The notes below the pieces were generated by a model that was given only the letters and a program-made list of their open reading frames with translations, was not told the DNA's origin and did no database searches. Source: Sporopachydermia quercuum (lineage: Eukaryota; Ascomycota; Sporopachydermiomycetes; Sporopachydermiales; Sporopachydermiaceae). From it: a stretch of 64,000 bases of DNA. The stretch is taken from positions 1,837,148-1,901,147 of the forward strand of contig BCGN01000003.1 in assembly GCA_001599295.1 (NCBI GenBank). Reading direction: 5' to 3'. Both the position numbers and the translations under genes were made by a program. Shown one piece after another: positions 15,643-55,700 of the stretch. Numbering within the stretch: the first letter of the stretch is position 1; every line of letters begins with the position of its first letter.

Positions 15643-18600
15643 ATGGCTACTCGTGCTGAAAGCGCCTTGGCCGTCAACATCAAAAAGGCCACTAACTCTG
15701 ACGAAACTTCTCCTAAACGTAAACATGTCAGAGCCTGTATTGTCTACACTTGGGACTATCAGTCGTCAAGAGCTTTCTGGAATGGCCTGAAACTCCAACC
15801 CCTGCATGACGATCAAGTCCAAGTGTTTAAAGCGTTAATCACCATCCATAAAGTTCTTCAAGAAGGCCATCCGAAGACTCTGATTGAAGCTCAAAGCAAC
15901 GTTGGGTTTATCCAATCTCTCGGTAAATCCACCATCACGGCTGGTGGTGGGAACACTGAAGGTCGCAAAGGTTATGGCCGTTTAATCAGAGAATACGTCG
16001 ATTTTCTCATGCGGAAGCTTGCATTCCATAAATCGCATCCTGAATTCAACGGTACGTTTGAATACGAAGAATATGTCAGTTTGAAGAGCATTAGTGACCC
16101 CAATGAAGGCTATGAGACAATTTTGGATCTCATGACGTTGCAGGACAGCATCGATGACTTCCAGAAGCTTATTTTTGCTTCTATTTCTAACTACGGCAAA
16201 AACGAATGCAAAGTTTCCTCTTTGGTGCCAATGGTAGCTGAAAGCTACGGTATATATAGATTCGTCACGTCTATGCTTAGAGCTATGCACCACGCAACTG
16301 GGTCTGACGAAGCCCTGGAACCACTAAGACAAAGATATGATTCGCAGCATATGCGGTTACGGGATTTCTATGCTGACTGTTCTACGGTTAAGTATCTTAC
16401 GTCTTTAATCACTGTACCCAAGCTGCGGATTGAGCCTCCTAATCTGTTCAAGGACGACGAGGACAGCGATGAGTTTGCACCTTCAGTTCCCGCACGACCT
16501 CGAAAGGAAGCGAAACCCGAACGTGAACGTACCGAATCGCCAATCAGCGTCCAGACTACTTCCGCCACCGGAACCCCCGAGCCCGTGACCGATTTCTGGT
16601 CCCAGCAACAGGCCCAACAGGCTCAGCTCGCACAGCAGCAGTACGAAGAAGAACAACGGCGTCTGCAGCAGGAACAGCAGCTTGCCTTGCGGCAGCAGCA
16701 GGAACAGGCCTTAGAACAGCAGCGCCAGTTCGAGGACATGCAGCGCCAGCAACTCGAGGCCCAGAAACTCGCCCAGCAGCGCCTCATCCAGGACCAGCTC
16801 GCCCAGCAAACGCAAGGCAGAGTCGCTGAGCTCGAACGCGACCTCCTCAACTACAAAGGGCAGTATGACCAAGACCAGCTGTTGCTCCAACAGTATGACC
16901 AACGGGTTAAAACCTTGGAAACAGAACTGCAGCAGTTGAATTTGGCTTCCAGCCAGCAGTTCCAGTCGAAAGACGAGTTGATTGCTACTCTTCAGGAGAA
17001 AATTAACCAATGGCAGAAGAAATACGAAGCGTTAGCAAAGCTCTATTCCCAATTACGTAAAGAGCACATTGAGCTTCTCAACAAGCTGAAGACTTTCCAA
17101 CAGAAAGCTGCCAGTGCCCAGGAAGCTATTGAAAAGAAGGAAAAGATGGAACGGGACATGAAGGCCAAGAACATTGAGCTGGCCGACTTGATCCGGGAAC
17201 GGGACCGCGCGCGGTACGAGCTAGACAAGCTCCGAGGCGGCCAAAAGGACGAAATCGAGAAACTCGAGCGGGAAATCTCGTTGCTGAAAGACCAATTGTC
17301 CAAAAGCGAGAAAAGCTCCAGTTCTAACGTTATGCTGCTGTTGAATCAACACCAGAAGGAAGTAGAAGATCTCCAACGGCAATTGGCTGAACGGGAGGAA
17401 GAAATCGCCGATTTGAAGAAGAGCAAGGCTTCCGCTTCAGCTTCCGACGGCGAGCTCCATGAACAATTGAGAGAAAAAGAGGAAGAACTAGAAATCATGC
17501 AAGCTACAATGGACAACGCCTTGAAGGAGCTCGCCGACCAGCAAAAGGCCAACGAAGACGCTCTAGACGAACAGATTGACCAGGTTTTACTTGAACAGCT
17601 CGCTAAACTGTCGCATATCATCGATTCTGTATTATTAAACGGGGCAAAACGCGTCCAGGACTCAATCTACGAATTGGATTCTCCTATGCAAGCAGGAAAT
17701 CTCAATGCTTCTCCTTCTTATTTGCTTTCAGTGATTGAAAAAGCTTCTAATTCTGCTACTGATTTTGCTACTGCGTTCAACAATTTCATAGCCGATGGTC
17801 CCAACGGTGACCATTCAGCAATCATTGAAAACGTAACTGTGTTTTCCTCTGCTATCTCTGATTTAGTACTGGATTCCAAGGGAGTCACTCGGTTGGCCAA
17901 GAACGACGATGAGAGTGAAATGATAGTTGCATTGGCCAGAAATGTTGCTTTATCAGCCGAGCATTTCTTCACCAGCTTGACGTCAGAGAAATTGGCCAAA
18001 TTGTCTGATGAGGATAAGACCGAGAAGGTGATTTTGAGTAATATGGAAGTGCAAGAGAACCTGCAGAGTCTGTCGCATTTGGCTGAAAGAATGGTGCCCA
18101 AGTCGTTGCTGAATGACACCAGCACCAAAGATTTGGGTCAATTGGTTGATAGTGAAATGGAGAAAGCAGCATTGGCTATTCAGAAGGCCAGTGAACGGTT
18201 AACTGAACTGTTAGCTAAGCCCAAGGATCCAAGTCTTTCGTCTATTGATCTACAAGTGAACCAGGCTATATTGGCAGCAGCTATTGCTGTTACCAATGCA
18301 ATTGCTATGTTGATGAAGGCAGCTACAGACTGTCAAATGGAAATTGTAGCTCAGGGTAAAGGAACTGATTCTAAGGCAGCATTTTATAGGAAACATAATA
18401 GATGGACCGAAGGATTGATTTCCGCTGCGAAAGCAGTTGCAGGATCTACAAATATCTTGATAGAGACTGCCGACGGTNTTTTGAGCTCTGCAAATACGCC
18501 AGAACAGCTGATTGTTGCGTCCAACGAAGTCGCAGCATCAACGGCTCAATTAGTGGCAGCATCGAGAGTTAAAGCTACGTTTATGAGCAAGACCCAAGAT

Positions 18601-18855
18601 AAATTAGAGTACGCATCTAAAGCTGTTACATCAGCATGCCGGTCTTTGGTCAATCAAGTAAAGGAGATATTGGCGAAGAAACAAGAGGAGGAAGCTGTGG
18701 TTGATTATTCGAAGTTGACACCTCATGAGTTTAAGACTACGGAGATGGAGCAGCAGGTGGAGATTTTGAAATTGGAGAACTCTTTGAACGCGGCAAGGAA
18801 AAGACTAGGCGAAATTAGAAAATTCAGCTATCAAGATGATAGCGATGAAGAATAG
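15643..18855 (+). CDS. SLA2: Endocytic actin adaptor Sla2 (HIP1R family)
   Basis: Sla2 links clathrin-coated pits to actin at the plasma membrane. The 1070-aa protein opens with an ANTH lipid-binding domain (about residues 6-275; KRKHVRACIVYTWD, HKVLQEGHP, NGTFEYEEYVSL and FYADCSTVKYLT match yeast Sla2 closely). A Pro-rich linker follows, then a Gln-rich central coiled coil (about 320-650). A C-terminal talin-like I/LWEQ (THATCH) actin-binding domain begins near residue 800 and ends close to the C-terminus. The start at ATRAESALAVNIKKA aligns with the S. cerevisiae N-terminus. An ambiguous base at 18478 hides one residue. SLA2 flanks MAT in many yeasts; here its stop lies 57 bases from the end of a1, tail to tail. 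Confidence 0.98.
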   Translation: MATRAESALAVNIKKATNSDETSPKRKHVRACIVYTWDYQSSRAFWNGLKLQPLHDDQVQVFKALITIHKVLQEGHPKTLIEAQSNVGFIQSLGKSTITAGGGNTEGRKGYGRLIREYVDFLMRKLAFHKSHPEFNGTFEYEEYVSLKSISDPNEGYETILDLMTLQDSIDDFQKLIFASISNYGKNECKVSSLVPMVAESYGIYRFVTSMLRAMHHATGSDEALEPLRQRYDSQHMRLRDFYADCSTVKYLTSLITVPKLRIEPPNLFKDDEDSDEFAPSVPARPRKEAKPERERTESPISVQTTSATGTPEPVTDFWSQQQAQQAQLAQQQYEEEQRRLQQEQQLALRQQQEQALEQQRQFEDMQRQQLEAQKLAQQRLIQDQLAQQTQGRVAELERDLLNYKGQYDQDQLLLQQYDQRVKTLETELQQLNLASSQQFQSKDELIATLQEKINQWQKKYEALAKLYSQLRKEHIELLNKLKTFQQKAASAQEAIEKKEKMERDMKAKNIELADLIRERDRARYELDKLRGGQKDEIEKLEREISLLKDQLSKSEKSSSSNVMLLLNQHQKEVEDLQRQLAEREEEIADLKKSKASASASDGELHEQLREKEEELEIMQATMDNALKELADQQKANEDALDEQIDQVLLEQLAKLSHIIDSVLLNGAKRVQDSIYELDSPMQAGNLNASPSYLLSVIEKASNSATDFATAFNNFIADGPNGDHSAIIENVTVFSSAISDLVLDSKGVTRLAKNDDESEMIVALARNVALSAEHFFTSLTSEKLAKLSDEDKTEKVILSNMEVQENLQSLSHLAERMVPKSLLNDTSTKDLGQLVDSEMEKAALAIQKASERLTELLAKPKDPSLSSIDLQVNQAILAAAIAVTNAIAMLMKAATDCQMEIVAQGKGTDSKAAFYRKHNRWTEGLISAAKAVAGSTNILIETADGXLSSANTPEQLIVASNEVAASTAQLVAASRVKATFMSKTQDKLEYASKAVTSACRSLVNQVKEILAKKQEEEAVVDYSKLTPHEFKTTEMEQQVEILKLENSLNAARKRLGEIRKFSYQDDSDEE

Positions 18856-18912: not shown

Positions 18913-19666
18913 TTAATTATTCCTCTTATAGCTAGCTTTAGATCTCATCCGTTTATTTGAGAACTACGAAAATGGTTAGGATTTGGTGAGGTGCAGGAAG
19001 TCCAGGAACACGTAAATCTATACTTACCCATATGCGTACTTGCGTCGGTGTCATATTACACTTCTGAGCTATTAATTGCCTTTCTTTACTATTTGGAGAT
19101 CTCATAATGTCGAACACTGCTTCCAGAAACTCTTTAACATGACTTGGTATGATAGTTCTTGTTCTCCTAGAATTATTTTTGTCGATAGAAAAAGACTCTC
19201 CGGCTGAAATGGGCGAACCTTTAGAATCCGAGCCAATGGATGAGTTATACGACATCGAGCAAAGTTTAGAACATGCATTTGAGAAAGATTTACAGTAGGA
19301 TTCTATCAACGGCCCAACAAGTTTTCCAAATGAAGGATCATTGGGAAAGTCCTTACCAAATTAGTTAGTTTTTATTATTTTCAAAGGATGCTTTGAAAAG
19401 AAACCCCAAAACAATTCACTTAATTCACTTACTTTCAAAAGATTTCTCAACGAATCTTGGTACAATAGACTTAAATCTTCGATTGACTTGCATTGACTTT
19501 CTGTTAGTGAAGGGAAATGGTCAATTGCAAACATTTTGGAGTAATCAACTTTTGATTCGTATTCATGTTGGGATTCCAAAAAGTTACTGTATGTACTTTC
19601 AGTAGATTCTGTCAGCTTAACAATACTGTCAATAGAATCGAGTAATGAAGAAACTTCTTGATTCAT
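18913..19666 (-). CDS. MATA1: Mating-type homeodomain protein a1, three exons
   Basis: a1 pairs with alpha2 in diploids to repress haploid genes. Minus-strand exons are 19666-19433, 19351-19028 and 18963-18913, giving 202 aa. Intron 1 has a GTAAGT donor, an AACTAAC branch site and ends GGTAAG. Intron 2 has a GTAAGT donor, a TCCTAAC branch site and a TTTCGTAG acceptor. All junctions are phase 0. The homeodomain spans about residues 139-197 (RRTRTIIPSHVKEFLEAVF, then NMTPTQVRIWFSNKRMRSK). Intron 2 cuts recognition helix 3 exactly between the invariant W and F. The N-terminal 130 residues are not recognisable. The homeodomain is complete and I see no break. Confidence 0.9.
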
Positions 19667-20830
19667 TTTGTAATTACCAGTATCCTGGTATTGGAAGCAG
19701 ATGATTTGAGAAATTATAAACAAACCAAATAAATAATATTATCAACTTCGATTCGAAGTAAGAAATAATAAAAAATAGAAAAGGAAAACAAGGTACTTTT
19801 TATATGGTTTACTTAGGTCATTCTATAATGAGTTTATCCAGCTAGCATTTATTATTGAAATTAGCTCAAGCAACTAATTCTCAATAAGTTGTCATAGATC
19901 CATCGATGTTTGAAAGCAGATCGAGTTTCTGATCTGTTTCGTCAAAATGTTCCTTACCATAGATTTTCCTTTATATATAAATTCATCTATTTGTTTGTTC
20001 TGTTGTTATATGTCTGTACACTTTGCTTTTTCTGTTTTGCGAGAATATCATTTATTGGGGAAAATTCCGATGGCAGAGCGTCAAATTGACTTGTTTCTTA
20101 CCCATTAATTAACTTTATCCAAATTTAGAGTTCGACAGTACTCCTACCTCTCAAGAATATAACTAGCTTGAAACAATTAGGAACTCGTTAATTTTGCTCC
20201 ATTCTATTTGATATTAATGATTACACCGATGATGACTAAAACCCTCCAATTAGTTGGGATTCAAACTGAGGCAATAACCATTGGATGATCACACCCATAT
20301 TCCCATGAGGCATTCAACCTGAATTTGCACACATATAGGCAAACTTTGAAATCCCTTTTGTTTTTGTTTGCTAACAGATAAAATACAATATTCTTATCTA
20401 TTTTGTGCAAGTACTTCTCCTAAACTGTAGAAAGACACCTTTTCTTTTACTTCAACCTTCAAGATTGAGTTGTATCCCAAAGAGGAAACTATCAGAATAA
20501 TTTTAATGAACTCCTCTTAAAATTGTTCTTGTAATACTTGTTTCAGAATCACCATTGCCAAACATTTTTATCATTAACGCAAAACAAATAACTAAGTTTG
20601 AAGCTGAAACGGCTAAGGAAGCATCAATCAACCATATAGAACGTAGGTGATAGTATTGATAAATGACTATAAATAAGACCTGATCGCAAGACAGACGTGA
20701 TGCAAAAGTTAACATGATGAGACTATTTAAATATTAGAATCTCTGAACATAACTTCCATAAGACATTAAGTAGACTCAGAAACTTAGTTCCATTACAGCT
20801 ATATAAAATTCTAATTGACTGCTTGCTAAA
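19667..20830. promoter_or_regulatory. Shared divergent promoter region of a1 and a2
   Basis: a1 and a2 are transcribed away from each other from this 1.2 kb, so their regulatory sites should lie here. I looked for classical alpha2-Mcm1 or a1-alpha2 operators and found no clear match. A 70-codon minus-strand frame (20503-20715) has no homology I recognise. Confidence 0.45.
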
Positions 20831-21901
20831 ATGAGTTCTCAAGATGAGCGGCAGAGAAGCTCTACCTTCTCAACTTCAGCTGCAGCTCAGTTCTTCACTT
20901 CTTGCATTATTCCTCGGATTCGAACAAAGTCTCCACCCACAGTAGTGACACTGGAACAAAAACTACAGCTGAACATACAATTAACAGAAAATAAGTCACC
21001 AAGAACCAGACAAGACCTGTCAAGTACCTCATGTCCATCTTCATACTCATCCTTATACCCATCTTCTCATCATTGTTCTTTATATCTGCTTGATGATGGA
21101 ACCACAAACAATAAAGATCTGGTATGCAAAGCATCTTGTATCTTTCAACTCAAACTAAAACTGCAGAATAGTAAACTAGAGGACAAGGATAACCTTCCCA
21201 TATATTCCACAACTGAAGCGCCAATGAACAAAAATGAAGTGAATTACAGATTTGTTGACTATGGCCAACACGAGTTTACTCCATTTTCCGAAGACATTAT
21301 GAAACAAGACCATAAGGTCAGAGGACTGAAAGGTAAAAATGGATCGATCCCCAGGCCAAAGAACAGTTTTATGATAGCAAGATTTCTGCTGAATCCTTGT
21401 ATTAGAAAGTATATCACAGATGATTTACCACAAATTTCAAGAACTATGTCAGTTGTAAGTTTGGAAGACTTGAGGATTGTTTTTTATTTTTTATTTTTCT
21501 TTTCTTTAATAATTAATTGCAAATCTGACCGTATAAATTTCTTATAGTTCTGGAGCAATGTTAAGTCTTCTCCAATAATGCTTGCCTATTATATGTACTT
21601 GGCTCAGTCTGAGCAGGCATGGCACTCAACTGTTTATCGCACATACAAGTACAAGCCAGATAAAGGAAAAAGGCCAAAGCAAAAAATCTCTGACGAACAA
21701 ATAGGGTCTGATAAACCGCACCTAACACAAAAAGATTTTGAGCATTTACCCAAATTTGTGGCCGCTAATAAGAAGCCATACAAGAGAATTAAATATGTGG
21801 TTGAACAGAGAGTATCGAAAGCGAAACAGAAACCCTCAATAAGTACTACGCAGAATGTTCAACGACTTGATAGGATGAGAATTGAAGTTCTCCTAAACTG
21901 A
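20831..21901 (+). CDS. MATA2: Mating-type HMG-box protein a2, two exons
   Basis: In yeasts that keep it, a2 is an HMG-box activator of a-specific genes. Exons 20831-21454 and 21548-21901 give 325 aa. The donor GTAAGT at 21455 and the acceptor TATAG at 21547 join in phase 0. The HMG box (about residues 174-248) reads RPKNSFMIARF, then SRTMSVFWSN across the junction, then MYLAQSEQAWHSTVYRTYKY. Placement of an intron inside the HMG box is common in MATA_HMG genes. The N-terminal 170 residues are Ser/Thr-rich and unrecognised, with a PRTRQDLSSTS patch. The C-terminus is basic. The box appears intact. It diverges from a1, the usual layout of an a idiomorph. Confidence 0.9.
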
Positions 21902-22056
21902 GGTTATTTAGTTTAGGAGGACATCCAACAAGTCAAAAGGGCCTTCAGCGATCACCATGATTTAGCATCACATCCTAGTTGTTCTACAATGGAACAAAAA
22001 ATATCACTCATGGTACCATTTGACATGAGACCTAGTAGAGGAATCTTTTTCAATTT

Positions 22057-22121
22057 AGCCTTGCGCCCTTTATAGGACACTTCCCTTCACATATATATAG
22101 AAAAGTCAAAAAAATATGGGG
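22057..22121 (+). repeat. Direct repeat copy 1, left of alpha genes
   Basis: This 65-bp stretch aligns in the same orientation with 27504-27569. The shared core is TTATAGGACACTTC, preceded by AGCCTT and followed by an A/T-rich run and a GAAAA...AAAAATA-GGG block. The non-low-complexity parts match at roughly 80 percent by eye. Copy 1 lies 155 bases after the end of a2. Confidence 0.6.
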
Positions 22122-24246
22122 AATTTCGTAGTTAAGACAAAGTAGTCCGTACAGAAACAAGTCTTTAATTCAAGGTATATATATGCAAGAACCATGCACT
22201 CACCAAGTGTACTATTAATGGATGCATATATGCTTAACTACCTGGTACATCAAATTCATTCCAGGACTGGCTGCATTTATTATTTCTTTGAGACGTAATT
22301 ATATTCTGAAAAAGTCCTAGTAAATTATCCATTCTCTTTCATTTTGTACTAATTTCGTTACATACACTACGCTACTGAGTCTGGGTACAAATACAAACAT
22401 AACTGTCAATACTGACAAGAGTATACAATTGCTTTTCTCAGAATAAAATTCTAATAGACTTGTAACTTAAATAAAAAATCGCCTACCATTCTTGTCCAAA
22501 AGGTGGCACGTAGTTGCGTATACGATTAGTTTCGGTTAGCACTTGTTCACATAATATAATTAGGTTTGTAGCAAAGGGGTGGTTCCAAAACTTCAAAGTG
22601 CCCAACGATGTTCTACCTGCCCTAGCAAGGAGGCAATTCAACTGTTGACTCTACTACAATCAAAACTATGACAAATCTACAAATTTAAATAAAGTGAACC
22701 CAGAAATAATTTTAAAAATAACTCAAAAATTTGACTTTAGTTACAGACAATTGAATAAAGGCAAATATAAAAGCAACATTTCTTAGAACGTCAACCATTC
22801 ACTCATTCTATTCGTCCAGATAACATTCAGAAAGTTCCTATTAAAGATTTTGATGTGACGTGACATACATTATCAATATCTTCGGAAATAACTCTGACAA
22901 CTCTTTTCACCCGTGTAAGAAAGGGTATGGATGACTGATATTGCTTTTAGAATAGCTCTTTCTTCCACTGCACACTATACAAAGTTCCCATTGTCCTCAC
23001 ATTGGAATAAAATAACTTCGTTACCAGTAGCAATATAAACATGGTCATAAATGAACCGATTGCATTTCTCTTTCCTTCCAACTTATATATCCTTCGACCC
23101 TTGATGATGGTCACAGTCTGATGTTGCCTTTGATATAAGCGAACGGCTACATCCCTACAATTTTTAAAACCGCTTTTGGGGTAATTCCAAAGTAGAAGGC
23201 AATATTGCATTTTTTCATGAATTATTATATAAACCAAAACATATGTTTCCGGTAGCTATGGAAGTTTGCGTTTCTTTTTCACTCTTTCAATTCCAATTAG
23301 TAACCATTATTGACATCTAAGTAGTTACTATATAGTAATGGAACTGGAGAATCGTTTCTACACACAGCCTATGCAGGCTCTTCACGAGCAGCGATATAGC
23401 ATAAGAGTTTCTATATTGAAACTCATTAGCCTTAGCATAGCCTTAGTCCATGGGTAGGCTTCTGCTTTTGTCAAATTCCTTTCCATGATACATGAGGGAT
23501 TGTAATCATTCTGCCAAAACAATCCTGACCTGCAATGTTTAAGCTACATCCTGTTCAAAAGTTCCATAAGGACGATCCATACGAACCAATGATGCTGAAT
23601 AATCATTCTTATCATATATTAAGGTAAAAATAGACTAAAAGTTCCATCTTTCTCCTTAGTGATATCTAGTAGGTAACTTCTCTTAAACTACTCACCAAAT
23701 AGTTCAAAGGAACAGTTTTTCGTGATTTCTTCGCAAGTTCTATGTCGCACGACTCAGATATCCCTAGGCATTAGCTGGATGAACAGTACGTGCTTTATTG
23801 CACAGTCTTCAGGGAACAAGACTCAGTCAATTTTCACTAGCCTAAATTGGTTCAAAACAGTAGTGAGTGCTCTTAAACTTTGTCTTTAAATGATCTGTGA
23901 GAGCAGGGTGGTATTGCTATGCTCTTTACTTACGCATTCTATAGTAAAAGTAAAATTGGACCTGGCTATTCCATATTTCGGTATTCCATACTTATCGCAA
24001 CTCCTTTGAATTATGAGCAAAGCCTTCATTGTTTGGTTTACTCGCTTTTATTATTTCTATATGCGTACCCCAACGTACCAGCCAGTTTTCAGTATCAGTT
24101 TATACAATTTTCGCCTTTCCTTTGCATAAATTTAGATTCCCATCCAATCAGTCACATATAATAGAGGTCCCAACATATTCACACGCCAATGACGAGGTAG
24201 AGACTCCCCACGTGTCATCATAAAATGGTTTAATCTTCAAACTAAA

Positions 24247-24323
24247 AGCTGGGTAGTGTAGTGGTAATATGAGACGCCTGCACCGGAATTCACGAAGTCG
24301 GGGTTCGAACCCCTCCTGAGCTA
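24247..24323 (+). tRNA. tRNA-like sequence, probably degenerate
   Basis: Both internal Pol III promoter boxes are present: an A-box-like TAGTGTAGTGG and a canonical B box, GGTTCGAACCC. Acceptor arms AGCTGGG and CTGAGCT pair with one mismatch, followed by A. The T arm pairs at four of five positions. Between the D and T arms the sequence is about 3-5 bases too long and no proper 5-bp anticodon stem forms. The best placement gives loop CCTGCAC with only two paired bases, modelled on tRNA-Glu. No strong T-run terminator follows. It could be a tRNA pseudogene, a tRNA with an unrecognised short intron, or a TFIIIC-binding relic. Confidence 0.45.
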
Positions 24324-24547
24324 AAAATACATACTCGTCTTTGCCATCTATAGAATGTGNGTAACTGAGTGCCTTGAGTAGTCTATACCTCGCTGAAAGA
24401 GAAGATACAACAACCAGAGGTAACCGTTATCATTATCAGCGAGTACTTGTAATGTTTAAATTAGTTACTATAAAGAGAGTGATTAATAGATACTATTCGA
24501 TATATGAAATTCAATAGCAGCATAGCATNTATTTCTGTATAACTATA

Positions 24548-25657
24548 TCACAATCTCCGAAATAAACTTTCAATAATTTGTCCTTCGGCCGTTTTTTCTA
24601 CCGTAGACCAAAATTTTTCATGTCTACTGGCATTAATAAACTCATTGTTGGTTGCTTCTTCCAACCTTAGAGGCTCTGCTAAATCATTATTTGCCAACCA
24701 TTCTCTTACTCTCTCGATACTTGGTGATATATAAGATATATGACTATTATCCAAATTACTCCGCAGGATCTCGTTTTCCAACCATTCAATGAAGCAAAGA
24801 TCAGCATTAGCCTCATTATATTTAGTACTAAAATTTTCCCAGAATGAGTGATATCGATCTGATTGACAAATGTCAGAATCTGGCAAGACAGAAGAACCTT
24901 CGAATTTATCAACATACTGACCTCTGAAGAACTTAAATGTACCAGTATCATCAACCCTTTTAATTTTACGAGATTCCTTTGTATTATCTTTCCTTGGTGC
25001 TTCTGCAATTTTATTGCCTTGGCTCCGATTATCACTTTTTCCTTCAAACCTACGTAGAAAGTTAATTTCATCTATTCCAGCACAAGCTGTTTCATAAGAA
25101 CATGAAACTATCTCCGGACCATTGACTTTATTTTTCCTGATGCTTTCGGAAACGTCTGAATAGGCCTTAAAAGTGTGTTTGCATCCAGCGATTTTATTAT
25201 CTCTATTTGAATCCTTGTCTGAAATACTTTTACTTGGCGTTCTAAAAAGTTTAGGCCCAAACACTTCATTGTCTTGATTACAATTTTCTATCTTGCTGGA
25301 ATCTTCATTCTCATTATTCTCAGTTTCTTCAGTATCATCATCATCAAGGGCATACAGTTCAGTGTCCAAATCAGCTTCTACAATACTTGCAGAATCATTT
25401 CTACCTAAACTGAATGGTAAGTCACTCAACATCAATTTTACATCAACCGCAATAGGTAATCGCGGAGGAGCATAAAAATATGGCTGAGGCCTGAGATCAA
25501 CAATGTTATAATCTATATTCCTTGTGTGTTCCACCCGTTCCATAGTATTGGAGAAGATGTCTTCTTTACCATTACACACTCTCCATTTGATTGCTCCAGA
25601 TGCCCTGAACCTTCCGGTTCCTTTCAACTTCTTTTTTTTGATTCCTCTTTTGTCCAT
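24548..25657 (-). CDS. MATALPHA1: Mating-type alpha-box protein alpha1
   Basis: alpha1 activates alpha-specific genes together with Mcm1. The 369-aa product is about twice as long as S. cerevisiae alpha1 (175). Its N-terminal segment YNIVDLRPQPYFYAPPRLPI resembles the region before the alpha box of yeast alpha1. The alpha box is at about residues 240-297: TFKFFRGQYVDKF, then SFWENFSTKYNEA and FIEWLENEI, aligning with the yeast SFMAFRAYYSQF and WDYFAQQYN...FVEWL elements. Between them lies a spacer of about 150 residues, acidic and low in complexity at first, that yeast alpha1 lacks. The frame is open throughout, so the spacer is not an unspliced intron forced by stops. The first half of the box is diverged. 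Confidence 0.82.
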   Translation of the reverse strand: MDKRGIKKKKLKGTGRFRASGAIKWRVCNGKEDIFSNTMERVEHTRNIDYNIVDLRPQPYFYAPPRLPIAVDVKLMLSDLPFSLGRNDSASIVEADLDTELYALDDDDTEETENNENEDSSKIENCNQDNEVFGPKLFRTPSKSISDKDSNRDNKIAGCKHTFKAYSDVSESIRKNKVNGPEIVSCSYETACAGIDEINFLRRFEGKSDNRSQGNKIAEAPRKDNTKESRKIKRVDDTGTFKFFRGQYVDKFEGSSVLPDSDICQSDRYHSFWENFSTKYNEANADLCFIEWLENEILRSNLDNSHISYISPSIERVREWLANNDLAEPLRLEEATNNEFINASRHEKFWSTVEKTAEGQIIESLFRRL

Positions 25658-26047
25658 TATTGGCGAGTCAACTCACAATTAATTACTGCAATGTTGAACT
25701 TCCCATATAACATTAATGGCACTTCAAGTTGTAGGTTACTCTCGAAATGATTCTATAAGGTGTAAAGATAGGAAGAGATATGATAAAGAATACTTGATGA
25801 GCTTTCTCTTTGTGCATCACATTTCAAAGTTTAAAAGCTTCCTATAGTAAAAGGTTTCGTATTCATGAACTTGAAACTTTCCATCGAACTTTATTTACAG
25901 TAAGTGTACTTTAATTACAGTATAAGCAATACAAAGATATTTGACACAAGGTGCTTTCAATTCGTAAATTTAACAAAAATGTAGTACAAAAAACAACAAA
26001 AGGAACAAAACTGTTTACTGATATTTGTAAATGAAATTATATATAAG
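25658..26047. promoter_or_regulatory. Intergenic region between alpha2 and alpha1
   Basis: This 390-base stretch lies downstream of alpha2 and upstream of alpha1; both genes run on the minus strand. It should contain the alpha1 promoter. No clear Mcm1 box or TATA element was recognised. Confidence 0.35.
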
Positions 26048-26761
26048 TCAGAGTAAACCAACTAATTCATCTGATATGTTCGAATTTCTTTCCTTGCGTC
26101 TTTTATTGGCCAACCAATTTCTCACTTGTATGGGAGTAAGTCCTGTGTCTTTAGTCAGAAGATCCTGGCTTTCTTTGGTTAAATAGGGATTTCTTAGATT
26201 TTCGTTATACCAACCATTTAGAATAGCTGTCTGATGCTTAGCAATTCGTCTCTTAGATATTTTTGTATTTTGTGAGAACATCCCTTGGGTTATAATATCG
26301 AAAACTAAAGTTTGATCCATATCGTAGTCATGATTAGATAAAGACGAGTAGTAAGACGGAGTTTCTAGAATACTTCTAATGACTGGCCTTTGGTTGTCTA
26401 GTTCTAAGTTATATTCGTTTAACTTCCTATATTCTTCAATAATCCTGTAAAGTAGTTTTGCCAAACGGTGGATGGATTTTAATATCATTATTTCTTCATA
26501 TGAGTTATTTCTTGTCTTACTGAATTTTGCTTTGCTGATTTCGCCAACAATCTTTGACATCAACTCCGAGATATTCTCGGAGTCTCGCGACGGATCACGT
26601 ACAAAATCTTCGAGAATGCCAAAAAGAAGATTGTAGGTACTTTGCAAAGTTTTTGTGTTGTCGAGTGGTAAGGAGCTTAGCTTCTCTTGGGCCTGTTGGT
26701 TCGAGTTCTCTTTGTATATAAGTGAGGAAATGGAACATAGTTTTTGAATGCGGTCGCTCAT
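26048..26761 (-). CDS. MATALPHA2: Mating-type homeodomain protein alpha2
   Basis: alpha2 is a TALE-type homeodomain repressor that acts with a1 in diploids. From the ATG at 26761 it has 237 aa. The frame stays open upstream to 26851 but only to a TTG, so the internal ATG (MSDRIQKLCSISSLIYKE) is chosen; it also aligns with the yeast N-terminus. The homeodomain covers about residues 171-229 (RRIAKHQTAILNGWYNENLR, NPYLTKESQ with the TALE three-residue insertion, and QVRNWLANKRRKER). The preceding VFDIITQGM matches the VFNVVTQDM segment of S. cerevisiae alpha2. The C-terminal SDELVGLL matches APELADLL. It looks intact and intron-free. Confidence 0.92.
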   Translation of the reverse strand: MSDRIQKLCSISSLIYKENSNQQAQEKLSSLPLDNTKTLQSTYNLLFGILEDFVRDPSRDSENISELMSKIVGEISKAKFSKTRNNSYEEIMILKSIHRLAKLLYRIIEEYRKLNEYNLELDNQRPVIRSILETPSYYSSLSNHDYDMDQTLVFDIITQGMFSQNTKISKRRIAKHQTAILNGWYNENLRNPYLTKESQDLLTKDTGLTPIQVRNWLANKRRKERNSNISDELVGLL

Positions 26762-27080: not shown

Positions 27081-27503
27081 CGTTTTTTTTTTGTTTTTTT
27101 TTTAATTATAGAAAACAAAGCTGAATAAATAAAATAGGGTACTATCAAATATTTTCAAGCATCAACCTCCTACCTGATACGAGAAATTTCACTAACTATT
27201 AAGTGTTTTACGAATGACAATGGTTATGAAAAACTCTTAAGCAATTTAGGAAATAGATTAAGCAATATTGCATCTCGGATAAGAAGCTTTCAGTCCTGCA
27301 ACATATCGAAAAGCAACTATAACCATTTAATAACAAAGGAAACATTTCTCTTCTGATTACAACTTCTCTGTATTATTGTCATGTCAACATTTTCGTGCTC
27401 GATGATATATTCCCAACGAGTTATTTGCCAACCATAATTGATTTAGTTTTAGTTTATATAATGCGATGAAGATATACGGAGTGAGCAGAAGAAGCATCTA
27501 TGC

Positions 27504-27569
27504 AGCCTTATGCCTCTTATAGGACACTTCGCTTAAAAAAAAAAAAAGAAAAAGCAGAAAAATAAGGGC
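27504..27569 (+). repeat. Direct repeat copy 2, right of alpha genes
   Basis: Partner of 22057-22121 in the same orientation, with the core TTATAGGACACTTC and similar flanks. Part of the central match is an A run, which inflates the similarity. It lies about 740 bases upstream of the alpha2 start, so the pair brackets alpha1 and alpha2. Confidence 0.6.
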
Positions 27570-28308
27570 AAAGCTTGGTTTGAAAAAACTCTTAGACCTT
27601 TATAAATGACCAACTAGGAAATAAATGTGAAAAGCTTAAGTCTCATTTTTGCATACAAATCATACAAATTCACATAAATACGTAAAATCACAGAGCTTTA
27701 TCCTAATTCATTTGAACCTACTTCTACTAGCTTGTGAATCTTAACTTAAACAGAAAGTTAAATTTATGACACAAAAAAAAAAAACGAAATAGTTTATTTG
27801 CTTGGAGAATAAGGAAATTTGACAGTCATCCTTTTTTTTGTACTGATGTATGTACGTGTATGCAGATATATGCACTGTTGAACTTGATTATCGTATATAT
27901 AAGTAATATTTTAAAATGTTTCATGTTAAGAAGTTTTAATTACTATACTCCGCGATTGAAGAAAAAGAATGGCATAATCTATAAATAATTTGTGCTATTT
28001 ATATGTAGTAGACATGGATCTATATTTCTAATTTATCTGATAAAATCGATGGATTGATTTGTGGTTAGGTCACAATCGTAGAATCAAATCATCTACTTTT
28101 GCTCTGCATTAACTCAATTTTCCAGCTTTTTCACCTGCACCGGCAGCTGCAACACGATATATGATCTGTTGGATTTATGATTTTATACTCTTTAACGTCC
28201 TCTATATCATTCATATATTTGTTTGATTATAGTTATCCTTATTGTTCTTTTCTAATCACAAATTTGTATGTATTCGAGAGTGATTCAGTTGGGTGAAGTT
28301 CTTGAAAC

Positions 28309-28383: not shown

Positions 28384-28996
28384 GTCCAGAAACAGTGGTG
28401 CAAAAATAGGCAATGATGAAATGATATGATTGAATTTGTCTTATGTTCCTGTCTATATGTATATATATTAGATTTGTAATGAAGTTGATGGATTTTGGAA
28501 TACTTAGTATCGTCGTAGCTTCAAACAGCATACATAGGCCTCTATGAGTAAGTGGAGACTTGAGGTATATGGCCCCTGGTCTTACAGCAGACCCCCTTAA
28601 GTGCCTTAAGAGGTTCGAAGAACTTCACTGCACATGTAACTAGATTCTCAGTAAAATCACTACGAATCTGCGAAGTCTACGTCTTAGGTCAATAGATAGT
28701 GAAACTGATACTAATATAGATTGAACATATTTCATTCAATTGTATCAATGATTGTCAATTTGTCTTTATAGGTTTGATTTATTTTGTAGAGAAAAAATAG
28801 ATAGAAAAACAGTTAATTTGGGTTCTGAATCAACCACAGTAGATGTATTCGATCTACGATTGTGCCACAAAAAAAAGAAATCCAACAATTTTTAATGGAC
28901 AAATCAAAAATATAAATATAAGTACCTCACAATAAAACGGAATCATTTTATATCATCGTTATTATACATTTTTAGTACTAACTACGGTTTATATGT

Positions 28997-30225: not shown

Positions 30226-31214
30226 ATGGATTCAACAAGGGATGACTGTGGAAATACTAACTTTGAGAACAGATTCTGGTATGGTGGATTGGCTTCCATG
30301 GTAGCAGCATCATGTACTGTAAGTATAAGAAAAATGTACTTGAGATCAAATTCTGCGCATTATTGCTGCCATCTACCAGTATTACCGACACTAACTCTCC
30401 CATCCAACAGCATCCATTAGATCTAGCAAAAGTTAGACTACAAACAGCTAAAACGCCAGGCCAATCATTAATTAGCACGGTGAAATCAATTATAACAAAT
30501 GAAGGCTTTTTCGCTATCTACAAAGGATTAAGTGCTTCTTTATTACGTCAAGCAACTTACTCAACAACAAGATTTGGATCCTACGAATTTGCAAAGGAAT
30601 CAGTATCATCAACTTATTACGACAACGTGACACCACCAGGATATGTTTTATTACCAATATCAATGATTTCTGGTTGCATTGGTGGTGTTGTTGGAAACCC
30701 TGCTGATGTTGTTAACATTCGGATGCAAAATGATAATACACTGCCATTAGACAAGCGAAGGAACTATAATAATGCTTTTGATGGATTGTATCGAATGACA
30801 AAAAATGAAGGGCCAAAAGCGTTATTTAGAGGATTAGTACCAAATTGTACTAGAGGAGTTCTTATGACATCCTCACAGGTTGTTTCATATGATGAAGTAA
30901 AAAAAGCTCTCGTTTTCACTGGAATGGATCCACTTTCATTAAAGACCCATTTTGCTTCATCATTACTAGCAGGACTTGTAGCAACTACTGTTTGCTCACC
31001 TGTTGATGTTATTAAAACAAGAATCATGAATGCTCATCATCAACCTGGTCATGCAAGAGATTCTGCTATAAGTATCCTAAAATCAGCTTTGCAATCGGAA
31101 GGTGTACGTTTTATGTTCAGAGGATGGCTACCAGCATTTATTAGATTAGGTCCTCAGACTATTCTTACGTTTATCGTTATGGAGAGACTTAAGAAATGGA
31201 AACTTGGTATGTGA
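30226..31214 (+). CDS. DIC1: Mitochondrial dicarboxylate carrier Dic1, two exons
   Basis: Dic1 exchanges dicarboxylates such as malate and succinate for phosphate across the inner mitochondrial membrane. Exons 30226-30318 and 30411-31214 give 298 aa, the usual carrier length. The intron has a GTAAGT donor, a CACTAAC branch site and an AACAG acceptor, in phase 0. Three Solcar repeats carry PLDLAKVR, PADVVNIR and PVDVIKTR, and the protein follows S. cerevisiae Dic1 closely (LRQATYSTTRFGSYE, SLLAGLVATTVCSPVDV, FMFRGWLPAFIRLGP). Exon 1 ends in the first helix, just before HPLDLAK. The ATG at 30226 is the first in frame; a TTG precedes it. DIC1 borders MAT in several yeast lineages, as I recall. 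Confidence 0.95.
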
Positions 31215-46753: not shown

Positions 46754-49700
46754 ATGAATGACCCTTGGAACTATGGCAATTCAGTTCCAGCTGCTAAAAG
46801 GATTAAACGAAACCCTCGTACAAGGCATCTACAACAACAACAGCAGCAGCATAGAACGAAAAACATACGAAATTATATCCAGTACTTGACCAAAATTATT
46901 GACAAGGAAACAGAAATCAAATCTGCTTCAATTGTTAAAAATCCAGCTTTAAATAGCCATTTTCAAGTTAATTCTACTCCTAATAACAGTATTGGCAGTA
47001 CCAATACACCAACAGTCAGCAAAGAAGCAGCTATAAAATGTATTGGCCATATTGTGAATATAGGAATAATTCCAATACTTAAAAAGGATAGAAAAGAATG
47101 TTACAATAACAACAATAATAGCAATAACAAAGGAGAAATCAAAGACGAGGAAATACTGAATTTATCATTAGAAGTGCTTAATTTAATATGTGGGAATCAT
47201 TTTGATGTGTTATGGGAATTCGGTGCCTGGTACGAGATCGGTAACGAGGTCACGAGACCTGGTACAGGAATTGGATTGGAAGATGTTCGACGGATCACGT
47301 GGTCTAGCACAGGAAATTATGGTGTGAGTTTGTTTGCGGGAAGTTCCTTGGGGGGTGGTTCTGGAGACGTTTTTATTCCAATTAGTACTGCGGATCAAAA
47401 GCTGAACCCCGCGCGGAACTCCAAATTGGACTCATGCGCAAACATAAGCACAAACTCCGCCTACCCCACTTTCCCAATTTGTACACTCCTCGTTAACATC
47501 TTGTTCCTGTGTCTTGGTGAACCAAACGGCGATACTCTTACCCTAACAAAACGATGTCTAACCACAATCTATTCCGTTTTCCAAATAAAGCTTTTACATG
47601 TTGATTACGGAATCCATAAAGAAATGCGGGGTTTAATAGTGAAGCATCTCCAGAATGTGGAAGAATTCGCGGTTCGAATCACCAGAATAGGAAACAATCG
47701 GTTTAACATGGCACTAAAATCGGAAACCTGTTTTAAACATTTGGCGGGACTATTGCAATCGGGAGTAGGGTTACTGCAATGGTGTTTAAACAGGGCAGGG
47801 AAAGTCCCACAAAACACGGATGAAATTCAACTGAACCCCGCCTTTCCCCTTATCAACCAATACACAATTCATTTGTTCTGTAATCGACTTTACTTCATAA
47901 TCCTACATTGTAAAGAGTATTCTTTACTGAAATACCCCACAATTGATGCTCTCTTATCGGAATTGCTCCGCGCAGTTACAGACTACACCTTTTGTGGGGT
48001 AACTGTTGATATTCAAGGCACAGAATTGTTTACTATAGCACTAAACTGGGTGGACAGGTGTTTAACCCCTGGATTTCTCCGGGATATTCCCCTTACGGAA
48101 CAATCCGTTTGCGAGGGATTGTTAAAGTTTGCTCGGATGTATGTAACTTTTGGTTTAGAAAGCGGGATATCGGACTATTTACCCTCTTTTGAGTTAGAAA
48201 GAGAGTTTACTGAGGGACATGAAGTGGAGAAATGTGTCCAAATCCTCCAATTTCTAAGCGAGGTAGCTAGAGGGACATCAAGAAATGTAACGGAAGAGTA
48301 TCGTGCAAAAGCCGGGTCCAATTGCAATGAGATGCAGGGCCAATATTTCCTGGAAAGGCAGTTCACTATTACTACATTGGAAGTTCTCCGCAGTGATATA
48401 CTTAAATGGTACAAACAGATGTATCCCTTCCGGAGGGAAGCTAAAATGGGTACAAATGTCCAACTTAATTCACTTATTCCGACTTCTTCCGCTTCTGCGG
48501 CCGGTTCGGCTTCAAATACTACCTCAAATGCTAGTGAAAATCTTCCGTTTCCACTTACTCTATCGGAATTGCTTAGAAACTCGGCACCAAGCAACCCCGC
48601 ATACCCCGCCATCATTAAGCTACACAAACTCCTCATTGAGAACAAACCCCTTCTGGAAACCCTACAATTTCAGCTCTCCTTTCTTTACTATTTACAAAAA
48701 TGCATCTGTCACTCGAACGGAACTTTAAACCTCGGCACAGGGAAATGTCAAGTTTGTGATAGTTATAGCGGAGTAAATTGCTGGATTTTAAACGTATCGG
48801 AAATGCGACCGGCCCGAGAACTAATAGTACGAACAGTGGAGGAGATTGTGGAAGTATTTCTCGGTTCGGAACTGTTTTTGCAATCAAATGGGACTCAAAT
48901 CATCGTATTAGGTATATTACGCCGAACTCTGATCATGTACCAACCGAATGAAGCAATAAACATAAACATAAACACTCCAAATTGGGAAACCGGGGTATGG
49001 AATTGGGTATTAAGTTTAGCACGGGGCAGCATTCAGTCTTGGGGTAAGTATCCCAGTATGGAAATCATCCAAGCGGCCTCGGCAATACTCCCTTTTTTAG
49101 TAATTGGAACCTATGGCCACGAAAATTTTATCTCCATCTACCGGGTCTTATCCGAATCAGGTAACGCTGCAAATGGCCCGTCGATCTACCCTATTAAGGC
49201 AATCGTTTCTTCATTTGGCAACTTAGCATGTGTACTTACCGGTGATAAGCTTAACCTCATCCTTATCTCACTTATTAATTTATTATCCAACCCCTCTCAA
49301 TTTCGAGTGTCCCTCATCTGTACTGAAATCTCAGCAATTGCAAAGTACAAACGAATATCACCATGGCAACTGATTTATGCCTACATCCCCACTATTTCAA
49401 TTGTGATCATGGACAAAATGGCTGGAAATGGGAATGTTTTGCGAGGAATTTGTCCCCTTTTGGAAATCTCGGAGCGGGATTTCTTTCTCAGGACACAAAA
49501 GTTCATACTCCCCTATTTAATAGTACGGGATAAAGCTCGAGAAATCAATCTAATCGCGGGGTACCTACAAATCGGAGTCAACGATTTAATATTAGACAAT
49601 ATTGTGGTTATAATGGGGAGTTTATTATTAACTGTTTCGGAAGAAGTCCAGAATACCCCGAAGACCCCGCGCGGACTTAAGAAGTATCCTGCCATTGGTA

Positions 49701-52700
49701 AGCAGGTGATGGAACGGATTGCGGGGTATTGTCCAGAACTGAAATCGGTAGGGTTCAAAGGTTTAGTAAGAAATAATTGGTTAGAGTTGGCGTGGGAGGT
49801 AATGAAATGCTATAGCGGGGTAGAAACTGAAAAAGAGAGCGGGGTAAGAGGAGATCATACCGGAACCGATTCCGAAGACAATAGCAGAATCAATATTGGA
49901 ACCAATACCGGAAACGGTGCTGAAACGGCAATTATTATTACCGCGTTATTAACGTTAATTTACACTGAAAATCCGTCGTATTTCACAATCTCCCCCTCCG
50001 GAAATTCCACTCCGCATTTGGAACCCCTCCGGAAGTTCTTCGCCACAGATATACTGGGTTTTGTACACACTTTTTCGGATATCCTCAACGACAAAAGAGG
50101 TAAAACATCCGAAGCCGAAAAACTACAAAACATCAGAGCAATCCGAGTTTTAGCTGAACTTTCGGGAGACTCCTTAGTGTTTGCGGTACCCCGCCTAATC
50201 TCGGGATTACAAATAGCCATAAACACCCCGCAATTTGTTGCCGAGAGTTTACAAACATGGGAAACAATAATCAAGTATCTCCGAGAAGAAGATTTGCAGG
50301 GCATATTGGACATCACAGTGTCAGTTTTGACACAAAAATGGGGCCAGTTTGATAAGAAATTGCGGGGAATAGTGCGGGGTATTTTGGTGGAGTTAGTGGA
50401 AACACGGGGCATTGCGTTTGTGATGCGGATCAAACAGGGTTTAGGCGTCCCGTTGTTTTCCGTCATTAATGAGTTAAAGTTTCTCGATGACTACAGTTAC
50501 GGGATCTATTTCGCCGAAAAGGGCAACGACATTACCGGAAATGGAGCCTCAAACACAGAGTTCACTAAGCACTCTGCATTTTGCGCCACAGTTTACCCCT
50601 CCATTATCCGCCGGTGTTACGATGATAATATATTTGTGGTTCGGCAGGCATTAAATGAAATTATTTATTTGTACGGATTGGAATCACCTGTTTTGGGTTA
50701 CACCCTGCAGAACCATCACTTGAACCCAAATCCTGACCCCGCATTACCCCGCCGCCTAGTCCAAAGCATAATTGCCGCGATAATAAAGTTCCGAGACCTA
50801 AAATCGGATATTCCAGCTTTAGCTGTGCACTGTCTAGGGTTAATTGGGACAGTTGAGGAGCACAAACATAATGATTTCAATGCGGGACTAACAGCGGGAT
50901 TAAATCTCGGCAATAATCCCACTTCTGCTCCAATTATACTTCGCCATTTCGCCGATTCTGAAGAAACAACTTCCTTTTTAGTGCATTTAGTGAACAACTA
51001 CCTTTTAAAGGCATTTTGGTCCGCAAACCCNTCAAATCAACCCCTCCTTGCTTATTGCGTGCAAGAATGCATGAAATTGTTGGGAATTACACCACAGGTT
51101 CTAAGTTTGAACGAAACGGGTGGAAATATGACCGAATTGAGAAACTCAGCTTACTATATTTGGGAATCCTTTCCGCGCGGTAACCAAAGTTTACTTACCC
51201 CCTTTTTAAGTAGTAAATATACATTACAAGGCGGCGGGTCATTGGGCACAGAAACACCCGGTTCCGTTTTCGGGTCCGAGAATGCCGAGAATGCGGGGCT
51301 GGTGGGGTATCCCGTCTATGACTTGTCACAAAGCTATAATACTTGGTTATTTAAGTTCACCAGTGTTGTATTATACAAAATCGCTTGGGTAGCCCAGACC
51401 ACAAACGAGAAACACTCAAGCGGGGTAACCTTAGAACCCAATTCTAAATCAGGGAACTTCCCCGCCATCGGCTCGGCTATTTTCAAGCTCTGTTTCGGTA
51501 TCAAAGACAAAACCATAATGCAATTTATACTGCCATACGCGCTAATTGAATGCGTAAATATGTACCCCGCCGACACGGGAAGCTTAATTCGGTCAATAAC
51601 CGAAACTCTAAACGTCGGAATGGCAGATTTAAGTTCTGAAGAAGCTGACAACCTAAAACAGGGTTTCGAGCTTATTTTCAGTATAATTGATTACTTTAAA
51701 GCCTGGCTGCATAAAAAAGAGAGCAAAAAGAGGGGCAGTAAGTCGCAAAGTGGTTCTGGTCTAGTCTCGGGTAGCGGGGCCGATTTTGTTATTGTGGAAC
51801 AGTTCATAAATAAAGTCCCCGTTGAATTATTAGCCCGAAAATCATTACAATGTGAATCATACGCTCGTTCTGTTTTGTACTATGAGCAATACTACCGAGA
51901 GTATGAGCTGGGTGAGCGGGACAAAACTGGACTCGGATCCGCAACGGAAATCCAATTAGGACATAAATCAACACCAACCACCAATACAACCCCAGGTACT
52001 ATTTCCCAATCGAGTAATAGTAACACTGACAACAACAACCCCACGTCACCCTACATGGAACCTCGCAATAACCGGCTACTCACGTTACAAAATTTATATT
52101 CAAATCTCGACGATCCCGACAGAGTTTCTGGAGTTTTAGCCGTGTATTCAGCCACCTCTTTAGAGACAATTATTGCCGAGTGTAAATTCGGCGAGAATTG
52201 GCAGTTTGCGGTTGAAATGTTGGAGGGGAAAACAGCGGAGGACAATGGAAACTCGGAATCGGATGCGTACATGGAAGCGGATGCGGAAAGGAGGTCAACT
52301 TGGGTAAGCGGGGCAACAGAAACGCAAGCACAACCCCGTGGTTTTGAGCTCAATAATAAGACCAATAAACCAACCACAAAACCAGCACCTTCTACACCTC
52401 AGGACCCTTCTTTATCAGCCTTGTCTGAATGGGCTGTTGCCCCACATTCCCGGCAGTCCCTGCCATCCTCCGAAAACTTAGTCACTGAGCTTCTGTCCAC
52501 ATACAAATCCCATTTCCACTATTCCGATATCCTCAAGAAACTCAAGCAAATCTCTTCCATCTATCCGTCATTCTCCCCCTCTTCCTACCCCGCCTCCTGG
52601 ATAAATGTAGGCTTGGAAGCGGCATGGAACTGCCTAAATGCTTCGGAACTCCGCTTTTGGATCGCCGCTGCCGAGAACAATACCGGATATAATGAAATAC

Positions 52701-55700
52701 TAGTAATGGACAATTATTTATTAGGCAAGTGTCTTTGTGCATTAAAAGCGGGACAGTATGAGGAGTTCAGGAAGTATAGGGCTGCATTCGGGGAGTTAAT
52801 TGCCCGTAATTTAAGTTCCGGATCCGTGGCCGGCTCGGCATTGGCCCGAAAACAGGAAATAGTGAAATTACAGGGCATAAACGATATTTGTGTAGTAACG
52901 ACTCCGCTGGAAATGGGAACAGGAGCAAATGCGGGGTACCCTGGTGAAAGGATGAGGGGCCTTCGAGGTCTGCGGGATAAAAATACCAAGTTTGTAATTG
53001 ATGACTTCAAAGCAAGTACTGAAAACGATAATTCTGCAGCTTTCACCCGAAACCTCGGCACATTCGAAGTCATAAACTACTTTCGCACCCGAAAATCCCG
53101 AATCAATGCCGACTTCAATTCTAAATGGTATATTTCAGCTATTCATCGGGCCGCTTGCTATTTCTCTAACCGGAAGGAGCTTTACCCCGCAATCACGGAT
53201 AGCTGGATCGATTCGATTCGGATCGCCCGAAAAAGCGGGGCAATTGAGTTAGCTCGGAAGTGTATCAGTGAAATAGCAGGGGAGGAGACATCCGAGGTTT
53301 ATATGGAGACAGCCAAGGTCTTTTGGTCTTCTGGGGATGCAGGCACTGCCCTAAGAGTCGCTGCAGAAGCGGTGAAGCGGGCCGAAGTGGAAGCAAAAAC
53401 AAATGAGGAATCAAGAGCTGAAGCAATAGAAAGGAATAAGAATGTCGAATTGAGCATTTCGGTTGATTTACTTGATTTAGAAACTGAAACTGACAATCGG
53501 AACACCACAAACACAGCTCGGACTCTCCGGGGCAGACGGAGCAAAAGCAAAGCTAAGCCTAAAGCGGTTATTGAACTTACGACTGGGCATGAAAATGAGG
53601 AGTCCAATAAAGGGCCAAATGAACAAGAATTATTCAAAACCGGCAATTCTCTTACCAAAGTAAGGAATCATAGTTCCGCTTCAGCCTCGGCACAGTTAAC
53701 TTACGCTAAGTACCTGGAAATTTCCGCATCCACGAACATGAATAATATAGTTACCGAATACAGCAAAGCAATAACATTGAATCCCAATTGGGAACGACCT
53801 TACTACCTTCTAGGAAGATACTATGATAAGGTTTATAACTCTTTACTCAATGAAGAAACTTCGGAAGTGGGGCAAATGACGAGACAAACAGCAACAAATG
53901 CTGCAGCTCCAAAAGCGGGCAATGCAGGGCGAGTGTCACAACTATCAAACTATAAACAATTAATATGTGAGAACTACGTGCGAGCGCTCCAATGTGATAA
54001 TAAACGGATGTATGAGTTAATGCCGAGAGTGGTGACTTTGTGGCTAGACACCCCGCCAAACCAAAATCAAAGCGAGCTAGATCACCCAGAACCCTTCGGA
54101 ACTGGAACCGAAACCACGAGCACATCGTCCCGAAAGACAGCTGCTGTTAACACTAACACTAACCTTAACCTTGTTGCATCCGATAACCCCCGGAACCTCA
54201 CATATTCTGCGTCTCCCGCTCCCGCTTTGGAGCTCCCGACTTACATGTTCTATATAACATTAAACCAAATTCTGTCCCGTTTGGGACAGAAACACAAACA
54301 GATCTTGGCACAAATAAAACCTATAATAGCCGCCGTGTTAGTTCGGTACCCAGAACGGTCTTTGTGGTTTGTATTAGCTCAATTCAACTCTACAGACCCA
54401 ATTCGCAAGAAAAGAGCCGAAACCTTGTTTGCCGCTGCAGCCGCGGTACATGTTCCCCAGATATCATCGGCAAGTTCCGATATTCCGTTCAATGACGGGT
54501 ATTTAATCCCTGGCCAGCGGCTTTTCGCAGGGCTCATCCGCGTTTGTAGCGCCAAACTAAGCGGGGAAAAATCGGTTGTCAATCTGTTTCAGGAATTTGG
54601 ATTCAATCCCGAAGTTGCTCCATGCCGAATGGTCGTTCCGGTTGAATCCGAGCTGGTGGCTTCTCCTGGAACTGCTGGAACGGAGATCTGGGAAGGAACA
54701 ACCAGCGGGACCCGCGGGGAAACTCGAGATTGCTGTGGCTCGTTCCGTGCGTTTGGAACGGCAACCACAATAACTAAATTCACCCCGCGGTGCGAAATCT
54801 TTAAATCTCTGCGTAAACCCCGCAAGATCCAGATTCTCGGCTCAAACGGGAAATTCTATGCTCTGATGTGCAAAAACGATGACCTTCGGAAAGATTCTCG
54901 GCTTATGGACTTCACAGCATCTATAAACCGGCTTCTTCGAAAAAACTCAGACTCTAACAGCCGAGACCTCGGCATTATTACTTATATGGCGGTTCCCCTT
55001 AATGAGAAGTACGGCATGATTGAATTTGTGCAATCAGTTAGACCGTTACGGGAAATATTCACCGAGTTATACCTAAACCGGAATAACCCGTTGAAATTAG
55101 CCGAGCTTAAAACTTTATATGCGGGACCTGGTAATAGCGGAAAGGATAATCCGGCAGCAAATATCGGAAACAATAACCCGCTGCTCCATCAGAAAATCAA
55201 AATCTTTCAAAAAATTTGCAACATGTACCCGCCAATTCTCTATTTATACTTTCTGCAACAATTCCCGGAAGCTAATAATTGGTACTTGGCTCGGAACAAC
55301 TACACCCGATCAACTGCGGTAATGTCAATGGTGGGATACATCCTCGGCCTTGGAGATCGACACAGTGAAAACCTTCTTTTGTCTAAAGCTTCTGGGTCCA
55401 TTTTCCATGTAGATTTTGACTGTCTGTTTGAAATGGGCACGCGGCTGAAAGTTCCAGAAAGGGTTCCGTTCCGGTTGACATGTAATATGGTTGATGCAAT
55501 GGGAATAACTGGGACGGAAGGAAGTTTCCGCAAGTGCAGCGAGATCACGTTACATGTGATTCGGAACAATGAGAATATGCTAATGAATATTTTAGAGCCG
55601 TTTATTCATGATCCGGTTTTGGATTGGACTCGACTTCGGAAGAGCGAGAAGCAGAATTCGGTTGTTGGCGGGGTAAGCGGGGTACAAGCTGGAGCAGGAG

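Follow-up and report, generated by a model that had tools for sequence, protein, structure and literature searches.

The window analysed here is a stretch of 64,000 nt, i.e. bases 1,837,148-1,901,147 of contig C3 (2,043,343 bases) in an assembly of 16,393,282 bases and 12 contigs. It contains a mating-type (MAT) locus in which genes for both mating types, a1, a2, alpha1 and alpha2, lie in series between SLA2 and a gene for a DIC1-like mitochondrial carrier. The order from left to right is SLA2 (+), a1 (-), a2 (+), a 2.65-kb spacer, alpha1 (-), alpha2 (-) and the carrier gene (+). The features of the locus, in window positions, are as follows.

15643..18855, + strand: SLA2, a flanking anchor (1070-aa frame; single copy in the genome)
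18913..19666, - strand: MATa1 homeodomain gene, exons 19666-19433, 19351-19028 and 18963-18913 (splice enumeration, Pfam and PDB)
20831..21901, + strand: MATa2 HMG-box gene, intron 21455-21547 (alignment to an HMG box of the same genome)
21902..24547, no strand: spacer between the a and alpha halves, 2.65 kb (found once in the genome; no ATG frame above 87 aa)
24548..25657, - strand: candidate MATalpha1; its divergent alpha box covers approximately residues 222-295 and is preceded by a long N-terminal part (pairwise alignment, frame length, codon bias and position)
26048..26761, - strand: MATalpha2 homeodomain gene (Pfam Homeobox_KN, 7.5e-10; PDB S. cerevisiae alpha2, 3.3e-15)
30312..31214, + strand: DIC1-like mitochondrial carrier gene, the other flanking anchor (Pfam Mito_carr, 5.1e-61)

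All four MAT frames are intact, the three inferred introns all have GT/AG borders, and no run of N is present in the locus. An earlier note on this DNA had described the four regulators as one continuous locus, and its coordinates and frames hold without a gap. The MAT genes stop about 179 kb short of the contig end, and the contig extends 100 kb or more past the window in either direction. SLA2 has 1813 homologues among 7993 proteins scored, with top identities of about 60-62%. The name DIC1 for the carrier is presumed from its motifs. The DIC1-like frame begins inside the carrier, and a 5' exon and an intron probably lie upstream of 30312.

The a1 gene encodes a protein of 202 aa and contains two introns, 19432-19352 (81 nt) and 19027-18964 (64 nt). 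Five splicings of the first intron, all with a common 5' site, were enumerated, and the 81-nt form was chosen because an ACTAAC branch site directly precedes its 3' AG. The second intron interrupts the homeodomain, and its removal restores the sequence WFSNKRMR. The spliced product matches the Pfam Homeodomain model (3.4e-17) and S. cerevisiae a1 in the PDB (9.6e-13), which bears out the intact homeodomain in an open, spliced frame that had been read from the sequence. The a2 gene encodes 325 aa and contains a single intron of 93 nt. Its HMG box is divergent as judged from the sequence: Pfam gave no match even at an E-value of 10, and the best PDB match was only SOX-30 (E = 0.24). Residues 172-252, however, align with an HMG box that a different gene in this genome encodes and that is itself confirmed by Pfam (8.8e-19), with a score of 100 compared with a maximum of 56 in 1000 shuffles. 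The HMG box claimed earlier for the spliced a2 frame is thus upheld by this alignment, without a Pfam match. Codon frame bias is weak in this half, i.e. 0.069 for a1 and 0.090 for a2 in frame, against 0.074 and 0.066, respectively, in the best other frame or strand.

In the alpha half, the alpha2 gene encodes 237 aa, and the Pfam and PDB matches listed above agree with the intact homeodomain and open frame expected for it. The alignments with yeast alpha2 extend beyond the homeodomain, spanning the linker on its N-terminal side (LVFDIITQGMF versus LVFNVVTQDMI) and the C-terminal tail (chain residues to 73); we take the linker and tail to be the regions that contact Mcm1 and a1. The candidate alpha1 protein is longer, with 369 aa and more than 200 residues ahead of the alpha box, whereas S. 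cerevisiae alpha1 has 175 aa. An ATG frame of 369 codons is beyond chance, since the longest in 60 simulated 11.5-kb sequences was 138 codons. Codon bias is clear in frame for both genes (0.164 for alpha1 and 0.112 for alpha2) and does not exceed 0.011 in other frames or strands. When aligned with the S. cerevisiae alpha1 sequence, the candidate scored 73, compared with a maximum of 60 in 1000 shuffles and with 45 for the runner-up among 81 frames of the window. No Pfam match to alpha1 was found, and none of 1444 candidates in a large protein set was scored as a homologue. Its AlphaFold model from the single sequence was too poor for a fold search (pLDDT of 32.6 for the whole chain and 49.6 for the C-terminal 137 residues). 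The alpha box proposed earlier is therefore kept on the strength of its alignment score, but as judged from the sequence it appears to be the least secure of the four identifications.

A PHC (primary homothallic contiguous) locus was defined in a survey of yeast genomes as one with both gene types at non-allelic positions, less than 20 kb apart and without repeats (Krassowski et al. 2019, PMC6692504, as given in the available part of the text). In the present locus, the a and alpha genes follow one another on a single contig, SLA2 and the MAT pieces each occur once, and the a2 stop and the alpha1 end are separated by 2.65 kb. In the 264 kb around MAT, neither inverted nor direct repeats were found at E<=1e-10. 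Ungapped inverted pairs were of 27 nt at most. We counted the region as free of switching-capable repeats despite two weak matches, namely a 75-nt direct repeat and an 82-nt inverted pair at 74% identity. In the same way, the locus lacks the inverted repeats flanking MAT that characterize flip/flop systems, both arms of the 82-nt pair being on the DIC1 side of alpha2, and it lacks the extra silent MAT copies of three-locus (3LOC) systems, its pieces being single copies. The locus is thus very probably the ancestral SLA2-MAT-DIC1 site with both gene pairs in series, belonging to the PHC class. The earlier proposal of a fused locus that would make a haploid express both programmes is retained for the contiguous a and alpha locus and for primary homothallism by genome structure, but not for the expression of both programmes. 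Its premise that such an arrangement is unusual was too strong: according to the survey, primary homothallism was reached in 19 inferred transitions among 332 genomes, and, in the part available, PHC loci are placed in several families (PMC6692504).

Several observations weigh against this assignment. The 82-nt inverted pair (E = 0.007; 28018-28097 and 28838-28917) lies between alpha2 and DIC1, and a weak 31-nt inverted match is also present at a looser E-value. The identification of alpha1 comes from a single pairwise comparison with the S. cerevisiae protein. The copy number of DIC1 refers to the 264 kb only. An alpha-factor model had no match in the genome, but it also failed to match any of 14 controls, so that this search is uninformative. 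A consensus for the a1-alpha2 operator is absent from the 64 kb; looser half-site forms occur two, two and one times there, and only one of these, at 22852 in the spacer, belongs to the MAT region. As the operator may have evolved, its absence is weak evidence either way.

Among the alternative explanations, it is unlikely that one half is a relic without function and that the species behaves as a single mating type. Such decay would be in line with the divergence of alpha1 and a2 beyond the reach of Pfam and with the weak frame bias of a1 and a2, but the four intact frames with GT/AG at the inferred introns, the clear frame bias of alpha1 and alpha2, and the good conservation of the a1 and alpha2 homeodomains argue against it.

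It is very unlikely that the locus is an artefact in which two allelic MAT regions of an a/alpha diploid were assembled in series. Ambiguous letters are scattered singly through the sequence, two of them lying close to the centre of the locus, at 24360 and 24529, and the survey, in its available part, contains many diploid assemblies of heterothallic species (PMC6692504). If two haplotypes had been joined, however, a gap or a duplication of the flanks would be likely, whereas the locus has no gap and no second SLA2 was found. In addition to the absence of N runs, genome searches recovered alpha1, SLA2, the a1-a2 DNA, the spacer and the alpha2-DIC1 DNA only once each in the whole assembly. A homeodomain search of the genome gave five places, two of which are a1 and alpha2; the other three are similar at the homeodomain level only (at best 28 identities with alpha2 residues 163-234 and 44 with a1 residues 14-191). 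The corresponding search with a2 gave one further weak match, to a different HMG gene. Ambiguous letters are also less frequent in the window (8, or 0.125/kb) than in the 200 kb of flanks (102, or 0.51/kb), where the longest run in 20 stretches was 2. The tandem join of alleles, which the earlier note had named as the main alternative, is accordingly disfavoured. As a separate observation on the flanks, ambiguous letters are dense at C3:1931148-1941147 and C3:1961148-1971147 (17 and 19 per 10 kb, respectively), perhaps reflecting local heterozygosity.

Secondary homothallism, by flip/flop or cassette switching with repeats that were missed or collapsed, is highly improbable: both gene sets do share one site as in flip/flop yeasts, one assembly of Kregervanrija fluxuum lacks a repeat where another has a large inverted one (PMC6692504, in the part available), and the 82-nt inverted pair is present between alpha2 and DIC1, but no MAT gene lies between the arms of this pair, the 75-nt repeat has a direct orientation and thus the wrong one for inversion, no inverted repeat in the 264 kb reaches E<=1e-10, the contig runs on well beyond both ends of the window, and no second copy was found of SLA2, the a1-a2 DNA, the spacer or the alpha2-DIC1 DNA.

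With the PHC assignment preferred, the sequence between and beside the two halves was considered for traces of their fusion. Three small elements are concerned.

22050..22123, + strand: first copy of an imperfect direct repeat of 75 nt, located 149 nt past the a2 gene
27497..27571, + strand: second copy of this repeat, on the DIC1 side of the alpha2 start at a distance of 736 nt
24247..24323, + strand: tRNA-like element within the spacer (20.5 bits with the Rfam tRNA model, short of its cut-off of 29 bits; E = 2.7)

Both copies of the 75-nt repeat sit on the DIC1 side of their MAT half. Their match scored 32, compared with a maximum of 22 in 200 trials with first-order Markov sequences, and ranks second among the off-diagonal direct matches in the 264 kb, the first being inside VPS10. 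Its BLAST E-values are modest (0.009 in the all-against-all comparison and 5.8e-4 for MAT against the 264 kb). No similarity extending around the repeat was found; in a comparison of the spacer with the alpha2-DIC1 DNA at loose gap costs, 8 of 100 shuffles scored as well. The spacer also contains no clear relic of the SLA2 side (scores of 195 and 206 against maxima of 215 and 197 in 30 shuffles each, one strand being slightly above) or of DIC1 (221 and 214 against shuffle maxima of 298 and 285). Motifs resembling the Mcm1 box occur in both repeat copies; they were given no weight, 85 such motifs being present in the 64 kb. A tandem join of idiomorphs with a common DIC1-side flank would leave such a repeat pair, and we tentatively suggest, as a minority possibility, that the repeat is a remnant of the flank that each ancestral idiomorph had towards DIC1, left as a scar when MATa and MATalpha chromosomes fused in tandem. 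It is also possible that the repeat is a shared regulatory element, which would leave the same pair.

The E-value of the tRNA-like element is no better than those of four other sub-threshold Rfam matches, and ARAGORN found no tRNA there. Parts resembling both promoter boxes are present by eye, and the element may be a decayed tRNA gene or a chance match. No mention of the 75-nt repeat was found in the open-licence literature searched, supplements aside. This repeat, the weak tRNA-like element and the alpha2 similarity that includes the linker and tail may be new here, although they are small additions.

The genome encodes one each of the pheromone receptors STE2 and STE3 and one SPO11-type domain. 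The motif TATAGGACACTTC was sought in the 1500 nt upstream of STE2 and STE3 and was rejected, since the best match had 9 of 13 letters in each. In the mechanism that we propose, a tandem join of two idiomorphs would have produced the locus, and every haploid cell would inherit both MAT sets together. As both sets would be co-inherited, sister cells could mate without switching. Regulation, either transcriptional or epigenetic, would set a or alpha behaviour before cell fusion, and after fusion a1-alpha2 would mark the diploid and permit meiosis. Since a1 and alpha2 appear from the sequence to be encoded in each haploid, their expression would presumably be staged, or the a1-alpha2 signal rewired. 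The authors of the PHC class, in the available part of their text, side with the speculation that regulation limits each haploid cell to one set, and state that the decision between mating and sporulation in cells with both sets is not understood (PMC6692504). The present locus is compact, its four genes are intact and its alpha2 includes the presumed partner-contact regions; it could serve as a clean test site for this question, as could other published yeasts. If the fusion-scar interpretation of the 75-nt repeat were true, haploids would possess a functional a1-alpha2 pair, and the timing of mating competence would be set by regulation rather than by genotype.

The arrangement is already known in kind, and this is most likely the locus reported for Sporopachydermia quercuum, which the survey classes as PHC, with only MATa genes in S. 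lactativora (PMC6692504). In the part of the survey available, the a and alpha genes of the S. quercuum locus are contiguous, lie very near each other and lack inverted repeats, as is the case here. The 'S. quercuum' called flip/flop in the same survey is a different yeast, Starmera quercuum, and was set aside (PMC6692504). The PHC locus of Ogataea naganishii shows the identical order SLA2-a1-a2-alpha1-alpha2-DIC1, with a noncoding spacer and, as described there, no repeats, but its spacer is 7 kb in length compared with 2.65 kb here (PMC6692504). In Lipomyces starkeyi, which is also PHC, the four genes are neighbours at the ancestral SLA2 site (PMC6692504), and no repeats are described in the available part of PMC9292350. 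The L. starkeyi locus differs in that it has APN2/MLH3 on the other flank and an extra HMGX gene (PMC6692504) and that roughly 20 kb separate its a and alpha loci (PMC9292350). L. starkeyi is a homothallic species in which the role of the MAT genes is described as not elucidated (PMC9292350). The flip/flop yeasts Ogataea polymorpha and Pachysolen tannophilus likewise have contiguous a and alpha genes on one chromosome (PMC6692504). These switchers, however, carry inverted repeats, consisting of part of SLA2 or of 2 kb, and switch by inversion (PMC6692504, in the available part), whereas no strong inverted repeat was found in the 264 kb here.

A phylogenetic tree of SLA2 was constructed with 45 rows, i.e. 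the query and 44 sequences chosen by hand among 120 listed matches, and was rooted at the midpoint. None of the 120 listed matches is named as a Sporopachydermia protein. The query forms a lone branch beside 17 rows comprising P0002, Candida boidinii, Saccharomycopsis and Wickerhamomyces/Cyberlindnera, with support of 96/90 for the 17 rows and 100/99 for the 18 rows including the query. It falls outside the only named row of the Pichia group, C. boidinii, which sets it apart from O. naganishii. CUG is read as leucine in this genome, because each of the four CTG codons in SRP54 corresponds to a leucine shared with the best PDB SRP54 chain. This genetic code, the SLA2 tree and the PHC state agree with S. 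quercuum. The Saccharomycopsis group reads CUG as serine. An affinity with Saccharomycopsis was accordingly rejected, and the SLA2 tree also places Saccharomycopsis elsewhere.

Elsewhere in the window, positions 46754-55882 contain the frame of an ATR/MEC1-type kinase of 3042 aa in one exon. S. cerevisiae Mec1 has about 2370 aa, and a kinase of 3042 aa would be unusually long.

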